Both the position numbers and the translations under genes were made by a program. From assembly GCF_039545095.1 (NCBI RefSeq), contig NZ_BAABRS010000001.1, forward strand, positions 1,426,001 to 1,490,000: 64,000 nt of DNA. The letters are read 5' to 3'. This stretch comes from Fodinibius salicampi (lineage in GTDB: Bacteria > Bacteroidota > Rhodothermia > Balneolales > Balneolaceae). The notes beneath the pieces were generated by a model. That model was not told the DNA's origin, ran no database searches, and saw nothing but the letters and a program-made list of their open reading frames with translations. This document shows positions 9,349 through 40,703 of the stretch, piece by piece (within the stretch, counting starts at the first letter, position 1; the number at the start of each line of letters is the position of its first letter).

Positions 9349-9392
9349 CACGCCATGGCGTGTTGTCGGGACGTACCATGTATTAGTCCGTA
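9349..9392. repeat. REP palindrome flanking the RAYT gene (left)
   Basis: A perfect 14-bp palindrome, CACGCCATGGCGTG (9349-9362), is followed by TGTCGGGAC (9364-9372) and GTCCGTA (9386-9392). These bracket an imperfect dyad matching the complement of the in-gene REP at 9718. It lies 22 bp beyond the 3-prime end of the transposase gene, in inverted orientation to the right-hand copy at 10088. Confidence 0.7.
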
Positions 9393-9414
9393 TTGATTCG
9401 AATTTATCACTTAT

Positions 9415-10014
9415 TCAGGCTACTGCCATATATTCTACCGCTTGCTCGTGAATTATATTGCTATCGGTATTCCTGTCTCTTTTACCTTTCTGCCACTGCA
9501 ATGGATTATCAAATATATATTGCCTTATGCGCTTTAAAGCCCGCTCATTTCGGATTATATGATCATAAAAGCGCGACTGCCATGCAAAATATTCGTACTC
9601 ATGGGCATTGCACCACCGGGTAACGGCTCCCTTAAAATGATTGATAATCATAGATAATGATTTTGATTGGGGCTGCCCGAATTTTGCTTTTCTCTCTGCT
9701 TCAGAAGCATTTGGTACGGACATGCCATGGCATGTCCCGACAGCTTCTTCTGATTCAATTCCGATTATCCCATGAATATGATCAGGCATTACCACAAATT
9801 CATCCAATATCACATTTTCCTGATGATGAGGAATCTGCCGCCAATAATGCCAGGCTATGCATCCAGGCACCGACAGGCCCATCATACCATCATTAATATG
9901 GCCAAAATGATGCTGGCTCTCGTCCGTGCAGATTGTAATAAAATATAGCCCTGTCCTGTAATCCCAGCCCTTCAATCGGATCGATTTTCGATTCGGACAA
10001 TTCCTCTTTTGCAT
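9415..10014 (-). CDS. REP-associated tyrosine transposase (RAYT, IS200/IS605-like Y1 fold)
   Basis: A 199-residue single-domain Y1 transposase. The HUH motif is seen as MPDHIHGIIG (about residues 79-88), with the family N-terminal segment YRTGLYFITICT, and near the C-terminus SRFYDHIIRNERALKRIRQY, whose last tyrosine is the expected nucleophile. RAYT proteins cut and rejoin single-stranded REP hairpins and are usually domesticated single-copy genes. Matching hairpins are found on both sides (9349-9392 and 10088-10117). Oddly, a third REP unit lies inside the coding sequence (9718-9737), encoding the stretch GTCHGMSVPN with the frame kept. The HUH motif and tyrosine are intact, so the enzyme may still be active. 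Confidence 0.9.
   Translation of the reverse strand: MQKRNCPNRKSIRLKGWDYRTGLYFITICTDESQHHFGHINDGMMGLSVPGCIAWHYWRQIPHHQENVILDEFVVMPDHIHGIIGIESEEAVGTCHGMSVPNASEAERKAKFGQPQSKSLSMIINHFKGAVTRWCNAHEYEYFAWQSRFYDHIIRNERALKRIRQYIFDNPLQWQKGKRDRNTDSNIIHEQAVEYMAVA
9712..9742. repeat. REP palindrome inside the RAYT coding sequence
   Basis: GGACATGCCATGGCATGTCC (9718-9737) is a perfect 20-bp palindrome, preceded by GGTAC and followed by CGACAG, the same flanks (GTAC.. and CCCGAC) seen in the copies bordering the gene. The insertion keeps the reading frame. Confidence 0.75.
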
Positions 10015-10087
10015 CTCTTTCTTGATTTAAAATCAATCTGCCTCCAACAATTCTATCCTATTTTAATCACGTCTCTCATTCGTATTT

Positions 10088-10117
10088 GTGCGGAGGTAGC
10101 ATGCTACGTCCCCGACG
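10088..10117. repeat. REP palindrome flanking the RAYT gene (right)
   Basis: GTAGCATGCTAC (10096-10107) is a perfect 12-bp palindrome inside the frame GGAG...GTCC, with flanks GTGC on the left and CCCGACG on the right. It lies 74 bp upstream of the transposase start and is inverted relative to the left copy. Confidence 0.7.
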
Positions 10118-26729: not shown

Positions 26730-27041
26730 CCTTTAAAAAGGAAAGTGTCAATCCGCCGGCTGACGGACTCATCCCAGGGTTCTTCATTTAACTTTTCAAG
26801 TGATACCTCTTATTCAGACCATCACTGCCGACCAGCTACATTGATCACGCTCGAATCCCCCCATTTCTACCATTAAAAAGTGACAGCATAAAAACCATCC
26901 CTTACGGAAGGTAAAGGTCGTTTTTAGACGTTTTGGAAAAAGAAGACCTGCCGATGGCCAAAAAAATCCCCGCCGGGATAGCCGTCACAACGCTTACTTA
27001 TTGATGCCTCCATTCTGCCAGTTATTCAGCAGCTCCCATCC

Positions 27042-27145
27042 GACTGTACTTAAAAGTACAGTCGGTATGTACCGGTAAGTACAGTGCGACCGGAGTAGTA
27101 AGTACAGTCGGTATGGAGTTAGAAGTACATGAGGTAGGGAGTAAA
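27042..27145. repeat. 23-bp tandem repeat array
   Basis: AAGTACA occurs at 27054, 27077, 27100 and 27123, exactly 23 bp apart. The first and third units read AAGTACAGTCGGTATG; the second is AAGTACAGTGCGACCGG and the fourth AAGTACATGAGGTAGG. A complementary GACTGTACTT at 27042 opens the array. No spacers of the CRISPR kind exist. A strong hairpin follows at 27151. Confidence 0.8.
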
Positions 27146-39101: not shown

Positions 39102-39698
39102 TCATACTTTTGACATCAAGTAATACATCTCTGTGGCGATTTGACGGCATCGCTCATCGTAGGTCTCTTTTTCTCTCGGCGTATCATCAGACTCTTTGGG
39201 ATCGACATACGGAATAGAGAATCGTTTTTCCGCACCCGGTACGAACGGACAGTTTTCGTCGGCATCGGAACAGGTCATAACCGCCGCGAAATTTTTCTGG
39301 GGATTGTATGAATCATCGAATGTTTTAGAGAAGCAGATCAACGGCTCGTTTTCATCACTGAAATATACTTCATATCTAGGATTTTCTCCTTCGGGATCTT
39401 GTATTTTAAATCCGGCCCGCTCTATCGCTGCCACTGCTCTTGGATTAAAAGCCGTTGCTTCAGTGCCTCCCGAATAGGTTTCTATATTATCGATGTCAAA
39501 ATACTTTGCCATTACTGCTGACCAAATTTGGCAGAGATGGCTTCGACGACTATTATGCGTGCAGATAAAGGTTAAGTTTACTGAATTCTTTGATCGAATA
39601 TAATCGGCTATATCCTTTAACTTTTGTTTTCGTTGAGCCGCGATTTCTTCAAGGCTTTCTTCCAGACTGCTGATGTAATTTTCTATTTCAGAATACAC
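39102..39698 (-). CDS. arsC: Arsenate reductase, low-molecular-weight phosphatase type
   Basis: A 198-residue protein of the low-molecular-weight tyrosine phosphatase fold, in an arsenic operon. The P-loop is CTHNSRRSHL (C-x5-R), with the catalytic Asp region YVDPKESDD further on and a candidate resolving-Cys area at CSDADENCPF, fitting thioredoxin-coupled arsenate reductases. An N-terminal helical extension (YSEIENYISSLEESL) is common in this subgroup. I chose the GTG at 39696-39698; the open frame continues up to 39770, but those codons cover the REP palindrome at 39740. It lies 100 bp downstream of the methyltransferase gene. Confidence 0.85.
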   Translation of the reverse strand: MYSEIENYISSLEESLEEIAAQRKQKLKDIADYIRSKNSVNLTFICTHNSRRSHLCQIWSAVMAKYFDIDNIETYSGGTEATAFNPRAVAAIERAGFKIQDPEGENPRYEVYFSDENEPLICFSKTFDDSYNPQKNFAAVMTCSDADENCPFVPGAEKRFSIPYVDPKESDDTPREKETYDERCRQIATEMYYLMSKV

Positions 39699-39739
39699 TA
39701 TAGTTTCGTTAGATAGTATTTGTTCGTTTCCAATTGGAT

Positions 39740-39769
39740 TGCAGGGAGGTATTGCAATACGTCCCTGCA
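39740..39769. repeat. REP palindrome between arsM and arsC
   Basis: A 30-bp near-perfect palindrome, 14 of 15 positions paired, with core GTATTGCAATAC. Its frame GGGAG...GTCCC is the same as that around the core of the REP at 10096 (GGAG...GTCC), with the same single mismatched position outside the core. It lies in the 99-bp gap between the methyltransferase and reductase genes. Confidence 0.6.
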
Positions 39770-39797
39770 ATGTGGAAAAATCTTTATTGGCTTTTTA

Positions 39798-40703
39798 TCA
39801 GCAGCAATCTGATCCCGGTGTACAAACAGCCCCTTCCTCTATCATTTTAATTTCTTGCTCTGAATTTTTAGAGTCAGTTTCCTCACCCGGCTTTTGGGCA
39901 AAAACAGTAATACTAAATATGCCGGTATCGCCATTTTTAAAACCCTCTATTTCTTCTTCAGATAAATATCGGGTTAAAATATCATCCGGTATTACAATGG
40001 GCTTTTCTTTTTGAATGGTAATATTCTCAAATCCCAGTTCTTTAATATGACTCATATATTCATCCTTCTGAATCGCTCCAGCCACACAACCGGCATACAT
40101 CTCGGCGTCTTCGCGCAAGGCCTTTGGCAACTCTCCTACCAGTACGATATCGGAAATGCTAAAATGTCCGCTAGGCTTCAGCGTACGAAAAATTTCCGAA
40201 AATACTTTTTGTTTATTCGGTACAAGATTTAATACACAATTACTGACAATAACATCAGCCAGGTTATCTGAAACGGGCATATCTTCAATATCACCTTCCC
40301 GGAACTCCACATTATTAAAGTTCAATTTTTTGGCATTTTTGCGGGCTTTCTTAATCATTGGTTTTGCAAAATCAATACCAATAACTTTACCCGTCTGACC
40401 GGTTTCGTGACGCGCTATAAAACAGTCATTCCCGGCTCCGGATCCCAAATCAATTACAGTATCTCCCTCTTCAATTTTGGCAAACTGTGTGGGCAAACCA
40501 CATCCAAGTCCCAAATCGGAATCGGCATTATATCCTTCGACCTCACTATAGTCATCGGACATAATATTGTACACCTCGTCAGAACTTTCACCCGAACCGC
40601 AGCATGAACTTGCGTTATATTCCGATGACTGTTCGCTTATCTGACTATATTTTTCTTTTACGGCTTGCTTTAATTCTTCCGCAGTTTTCTGTTTTGTACT
40701 CAT
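39798..40703 (-). CDS. arsM: Arsenite S-adenosylmethionine methyltransferase
   Basis: A 301-residue ArsM-type enzyme methylating arsenite to volatile or less reactive species. The SAM motif is VIDLGSGAGNDCFIA (about residues 86-100), with IGIDFAKPMI next. Cysteines expected in arsenite binding are present: SSCCGSG (about 33-39), SNCVLNLVP and a C-terminal CTPGSDCC. The glycine/Cys pattern GLGCGLPTQFA is also typical. It begins one base after the ArsR gene ends, so it is co-transcribed and translated in coupling. No signal peptide. Confidence 0.93.
   Translation of the reverse strand: MSTKQKTAEELKQAVKEKYSQISEQSSEYNASSCCGSGESSDEVYNIMSDDYSEVEGYNADSDLGLGCGLPTQFAKIEEGDTVIDLGSGAGNDCFIARHETGQTGKVIGIDFAKPMIKKARKNAKKLNFNNVEFREGDIEDMPVSDNLADVIVSNCVLNLVPNKQKVFSEIFRTLKPSGHFSISDIVLVGELPKALREDAEMYAGCVAGAIQKDEYMSHIKELGFENITIQKEKPIVIPDDILTRYLSEEEIEGFKNGDTGIFSITVFAQKPGEETDSKNSEQEIKMIEEGAVCTPGSDCC

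Follow-up and report, generated by a model that had tools for sequence, protein, structure and literature searches.

The window, that is, the whole stretch of 64,000 nucleotides of Fodinibius salicampi DNA analysed here, contains a transposase gene with a perfect palindrome in its coding sequence. Very probably, this gene encodes a TnpA-REP of the subclass 2.4 type, in which a self-inserted and tolerated REP-type palindrome occupies the variable loop that connects the HuH strand to the following helix. The feature is real and ordinary for its subfamily, with a variant of the feet. According to the accessible part of Quentin et al. 2018 (PMC6006769), only TnpA-REP subclass 2.4 has in-gene REPs; the authors set this subclass against group 4 of Bertels. 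Therefore, the window finding belongs to a known kind. A literature search, with most subscription papers and preprints outside its reach, returned no title taking in-gene REPs further.

The transposase gene and its palindrome

The RAYT/TnpA-REP gene lies on the minus strand at positions 9415–10014 and is an open reading frame for 199 amino acids. The HuH motif of the protein is H79-I-H81; it is accompanied by W145-Q146 and by the presumed catalytic residue Y166 within YIFDNP. Residues H79, H81, W145 and Y166 are invariant among 105 aligned proteins, and N170 and P171 are nearly so. Pfam model PF01797 (Y1_Tnp) recognized the protein with 24.3 bits, just above its cut-off of 23. The NCBIfam RAYT model NF047646 gave 56.7 bits over two stretches, below the curated cut-off of 80. 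When the own genome was searched with PF01797, one IS200-like match was obtained on another contig and the window gene was absent from the list. The REP-hairpin-bound structure of E. coli TnpA-REP (PDB 4er8; subclass 2.2) was the top match of the window protein by profile (E 4.1e-9) as well as by fold (16% identity in the fold alignment with the AlphaFold model, mean pLDDT 84.7), and the two proteins have their fold and catalytic motifs in common. The window protein shows the HuH and Y1 motifs, the latter with YI..NP, and the Y1-transposase fold that characterize RAYT/TnpA-REP class 2. The PF01797 score above cut-off, the invariant catalytic residues and the first rank of 4er8 in both comparisons support the RAYT identity proposed in an earlier note on this DNA.

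The motifs of subclass 2.4, NH[IFV]H, WQ and YIxNNP, read DHIH, WQ and YIFDNP in the window protein, N being the majority residue among its relatives. At the insert position of this subclass, the window protein has residues 92–101, encoded by the palindrome. E. coli TnpA-REP differs in this respect, as in-gene REPs are ascribed to subclass 2.4 only in the accessible literature.

The palindrome, GGACATGCCATGGCATGTCC, is perfect, 20 nucleotides long and located at positions 9718–9737. It codes in frame for residues 92–101 (VGTCHGMSVP); the sequence and the open reading frame agree that it is translated without a frameshift, as the earlier note had stated. Together with its feet, GTCG at the 5′ side on the gene strand and GTAC at the 3′ side, it makes up a REP-like element on the minus strand at positions 9713–9742. 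No other perfect, loop-free palindrome with arms of at least 10 bp was found in the 64-kb window, and the folding of the element was equalled by only 3 out of 200 shuffles. In the AlphaFold model, the insert residues 92–101 sit between strand 79–86 and helix 105–111, and residues 91–98 form the sole segment of at least three residues with pLDDT below 50. The model thus shows for this loop the low confidence that would be expected of a flexible segment.

At its base, the window hairpin carries GTCG and GTAC instead of the GTAG or GTGG feet of canonical REPs and of subclass 2.4. It also departs from canonical REPs, and from subclass 2.4, in its dispersal, since multiple genome copies were not observed: neither the own genome nor the 92 family genomes contained a further close copy of the palindrome, and no dispersed REP family of the window type was found in the own genome. 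Therefore, current mobility of the window element is not supported. According to the accessible part of PMC8266576, E. coli TnpA-REP needs GTAG, in contrast to the GTCG/GTAC feet of the window element. The same source reports different effects of a GTAC foot on two TnpA-REPs, namely a shifted cleavage dinucleotide in one and loss of cleavage in the other, and gives a guide model in which the foot bases choose the cleavage dinucleotide. Because of these effects of a GTAC foot, the feet of the window element are a testable oddity, which would probe the guide model.

Similarity of the gene flanks to the in-gene element was scored against a background of 3147 window stretches, the best of which reached 20. 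Downstream of the gene, on the left side, a hairpin CACGCCATGGCGTG at positions 9349–9362 scored 23. It is directly adjoined by TGTCGGGAC...GTCCGTA at positions 9364–9392 on the plus strand, a degenerate version of the in-gene element that includes both feet, is inverted relative to the gene and scored 25. The foot pattern GTCGGGACN{0,20}GTACC had two matches in the 3.94-Mb genome, both at the window gene. Taken alone, the fold of the left hairpin was equalled or bettered by 121 of 200 shuffles. On the right side, a quasi-palindrome GGAGGTAGCATGCTACGTCC followed by CCCGAC occupies positions 10092–10116; its hairpin (10092–10111) has nine pairs and one mismatch. This hairpin was discarded as a matching copy on account of its chance-level similarity score: it has just CCCGAC in common with the in-gene element, and its score of 12 was reached by 1402 of the 3147 background stretches. 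Its fold was likewise matched by 93 of 200 shuffles (fold z 0.02). Since upstream palindromes are present in a number of relatives, the right flank may still hold a decayed copy of an upstream REP. Of the matching hairpins that had been claimed on both sides of the gene, the left one is thus upheld, whereas the right one is at chance level. The search for further REP copies gave a similarly divided answer, with no further close copy in the 92 family genomes but related copies in the left flank.

Palindromes in the loop of related transposases

Relatives were collected in the same family, where matches were found in 35 of 92 genomes including the own genome, and in a wider set made of the best 80 of 417 relatives from many phyla. 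From the resulting 144 gene groups (64 family, 80 wider), 2 duplicates and 32 incomplete or broken genes (stop codon or motif missing) were removed, leaving 110. The loop was taken to extend from the HuH motif to the conserved tryptophan, with a palindrome score cut-off of 9. A loop palindrome was present in 80 of the 110 complete relatives across phyla, the wider part being the best 80 of 417, for which the count was 47 of 66 complete loci. The 80 genes include at least one with a palindrome that is not REP-like (L032). Overall, the loops of the 110 genes contained 87 palindromes in 22,788 nt (3.82 per kb). The N part before the loop contained 5 in 26,949 nt (0.19 per kb), the C part after it 1 in 12,252 nt (0.08 per kb), and background DNA at a distance of over 500 nt to the genes 43 in 261,404 nt (0.164 per kb). 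In the family set, a stem of at least 10 bp was found in the loop of 28 out of 45 genes, in the N part of 3 out of 45 and in the C part of none out of 45; codon-shuffled loops of this set gave such a stem in 0 of 900 cases.

The stems of the in-gene palindromes range from 8 to 26 bp, and 18 of the 87 loop palindromes have no GTRG foot on either side. Several palindromes occur in the main loop of L022, L031 and L068, and a second, N-terminal loop carries REPs in L051, L052, L053, L055 and L059. Twenty-five of the 110 complete genes are without any palindrome scoring at least 9, some of them having weaker 8-bp stems (L024, L029, L031, L050). In the five nearest homologues of the window gene (L008–L012), the same loop is occupied by palindromes that differ in sequence from the window one. 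One of them, L008, was considered as an insert-free relative and rejected, as it has a stem of 21 pairs and one mismatch, overlooked by the scan for perfect stems. The segment is therefore not ordinary sequence common to the close homologues, and the presence of palindromes in the same loop of most relatives, together with the related left-flank copies, supports a REP-type element within the window gene. A REP inside the enzyme had been called unusual; with a loop palindrome in 80 of 110 relatives, and as a hallmark of subclass 2.4 in the accessible part of the published description, it is not.

In-gene palindromes were also compared with the flanks of their own genes. The match to the own flanks was better than 20 shuffles in 41 of the 80 genes and not above shuffles in the other 39. 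When the flanks of all 80 genes were ranked, the own flanks came first for 26 genes and among the top five for 37; the window gene ranked third. For L071, a clean copying from upstream into the gene was ruled out, because the "upstream" copy sits in a second partial transposase copy, which inflates the own-flank rank of this gene. In Ancylomarina (L069), one palindrome type is found three times, with a TTAC foot upstream of the gene and with a GTAC foot both inside and downstream of it. In a Flavobacteriales gene (L082), GTCG-footed copies are present inside as well as immediately downstream, with half a copy upstream. As a separate observation, a perfect palindrome of 92 nt (two arms of 46 bp) stands directly past the transposase stop codon in L026.

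The strict GTAG double-foot pattern was present in 23 of the 92 family genomes, with up to 10 sites per genome and 77 sites by per-genome counts. Among the 75 sites listed, 12 are inside a transposase match, 9 within 400 nt of one and 54 elsewhere. Two of the 9 near sites (G043:C5:150057 and G005:C1:149621, the latter at a contig end) lie immediately beyond a truncated match and are actual or probable in-gene sites. Forty of the 54 sites elsewhere were examined for coding status, with open reading frames standing in for annotation: 3 are in a frame of at least 120 codons, each within about 45 nt of one end of it, and three others are in or beside further transposase-like matches. As so few sites lie in open reading frames, all near their ends, GTAG-type REPs of the family seem to avoid coding sequence except the transposase gene. 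Rickettsia palindromic elements and intragenic REPs are likewise short palindromic repeats translated in frame within proteins, as described in the accessible part of PMC3733652. However, both kinds occur in many unrelated genes, whereas the GTAG sites of this family are in transposase genes and otherwise in open reading frames at only 3 of the 40 other sites examined.

Change of the palindromes and their origin

When the loop is left out of the tree, the window gene groups with L008–L012 (SH-aLRT 99), and all six genes have a loop palindrome. The whole tree requires at least 12 phase changes and at least 24 presence changes, with 50 of 107 inner branches being weak. GTRG feet are split over the two open phases 42 to 15. 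Only this split is informative: the TAG-in-frame phase is absent (0 of 57 GTRG feet) by construction, since genes with stops had been dropped, and the phase counts leave out 35 palindromes without a 5′ GTRG.

Close relatives illustrate how the palindromes change. L009 and L011 differ by a single mirrored change of the outer pair. In 69 ordered comparisons, 1013 ungapped pair cells comprised 910 unchanged, 36 changed on both sides with complementarity kept, 60 changed on one side and 7 changed on both sides and unpaired; 119 further cells were gapped. These comparisons overlap and are not independent, and they cover alignable pairs only, pairs with a replaced palindrome being left out. To judge from the aligned genes, mirrored arm change occurs but is not the rule, as the one-sided changes outnumber the complementary ones. 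Replacement of the palindrome in the loop also happens: L008 and L012 are 83% identical upstream and have unrelated palindromes. Mirrored changes are known to arise by template switching between the arms of a palindrome, as presented in the accessible parts of PMC8794818, PMC8604942 and PMC7202029. In L066, each arm of the in-gene palindrome has a 5-nt duplication as compared to L027; L066 has no single-frame read-through.

Three other explanations were weighed against a self-inserted and tolerated element. That the segment is ordinary coding sequence of a variable loop, palindromic by chance or composition, would fit the hypervariable length and sequence of the loop and the 25 of 110 genes without a palindrome anywhere at score 9. 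However, palindromes are present at 3.82 per kb in the loop as compared to 0.08–0.19 in the remaining gene, none of the 900 codon shuffles produced a comparable stem, and own-flank copies exist. The loop enrichment, the codon shuffles and the uniqueness of the palindrome within 64 kb lead us to reject chance, to which we give next to no weight. A control element in mRNA or DNA, slowing translation or replication or serving as an autoregulator site and kept by selection, appears improbable. The recurrence of palindromes in one loop across phyla would agree with it, as would the near absence of strict-pattern REPs from other open reading frames and the state of the arms in alignable close pairs, where no change is seen in 910 of 1013 ungapped pair cells and a compensated, two-sided change in 36. 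Against selection of this kind stand the one-sided changes, which at 60 exceed the compensated ones, the absence of any palindrome scoring at least 9 from 25 of 110 complete genes, and stems varying from 8 to 26 bp. In addition, the window palindrome lies about 277 nt past the start codon, and template switching can pair the arms without selection (accessible parts of PMC8794818 and PMC8604942).

A stronger competitor, though still unlikely in our estimate, is a single ancient REP insertion inherited throughout the subfamily, which drifted by compensatory or template-switch changes and involved no repeated self-insertion. The constant loop, the prevalence of one of the two open phases among GTRG feet (42 to 15), the mirrored changes between some close relatives and the loop and phase that the window gene has in common with its five nearest relatives all speak for inheritance. 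Yet the tree, poorly resolved as it is, calls for at least 12 phase changes. Inside some genes, two or three palindromes coexist or a palindrome sits in a different loop, and the palindromes of L008 and L012 are unrelated despite 83% identity upstream.

Self-insertion tolerated in a loop, as the earlier note had suggested, is supported by the palindrome-filled loop of the relatives, by the likeness to the own flanks and by the low confidence of the predicted loop. From the position, the flanks and the fold, we infer a mechanism in which single-strand processing leads to self-insertion and only insertions into a tolerant loop survive. The enzyme or a relative would process single-stranded REP hairpins and could insert or replace a REP within its own gene. 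Survival of insertions would be largely restricted to one surface loop and would require an open phase, and the arms may stay palindromic partly through template-switch correction. The in-gene element is thus probably a passenger tolerated by the protein, keeping a copy of the substrate linked to its enzyme.

More tentatively, and with some doubt, the transposase gene might be the privileged coding address of its REP. Repeated self-insertion or replacement in one loop would then make enzyme and substrate inseparable on transfer between species, and the in-gene copy would give rise to new REP families, some of them with altered feet, for instance GTCG or GTAC. If true, in-gene REPs would account for the fact that an enzyme and its specific substrate remain together on horizontal transfer. 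The in-gene REP as a trait of the subfamily is already published. The present analysis gives numbers for it and adds the frequent own-flank match, the rarity of GTAG REPs in other open reading frames, the occasional mirrored arm change and the GTCG/GTAC feet.

Related palindromes in the own genome

Two more relatives of the transposase are found on the contig of the window, 3.5 kb apart (C1:1236419–1240559; locus L007, 1420–5560). Both look decayed, since in each of them the matches on the two sides of the loop are in different frames. They have long palindromes in the same loop, with a core unlike that of the window palindrome and with feet GCAG/CTGC in one and GTTG/CAAC in the other, so that mirrored foot changes distinguish the two. 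At up to 2 mismatches, the core is found at just these two places in the genome. At up to 3 mismatches, the GCAG type has two additional places, one of which is in the window. This is a 34-nt quasi-palindrome with GCAG feet at positions 39738–39771, of the type found inside the transposase relative at C1:1236721. It is located between open reading frames 39798–40703 (methyltransferase-like) and 39102–39770, and overlaps the listed start of the latter. By eye, we take the first frame to be ArsM-like and the second to be arsenate-reductase-like. The window further contains, at positions 27040–27065, an inverted repeat whose 12-bp arms pair perfectly around a loop of 2 nt.
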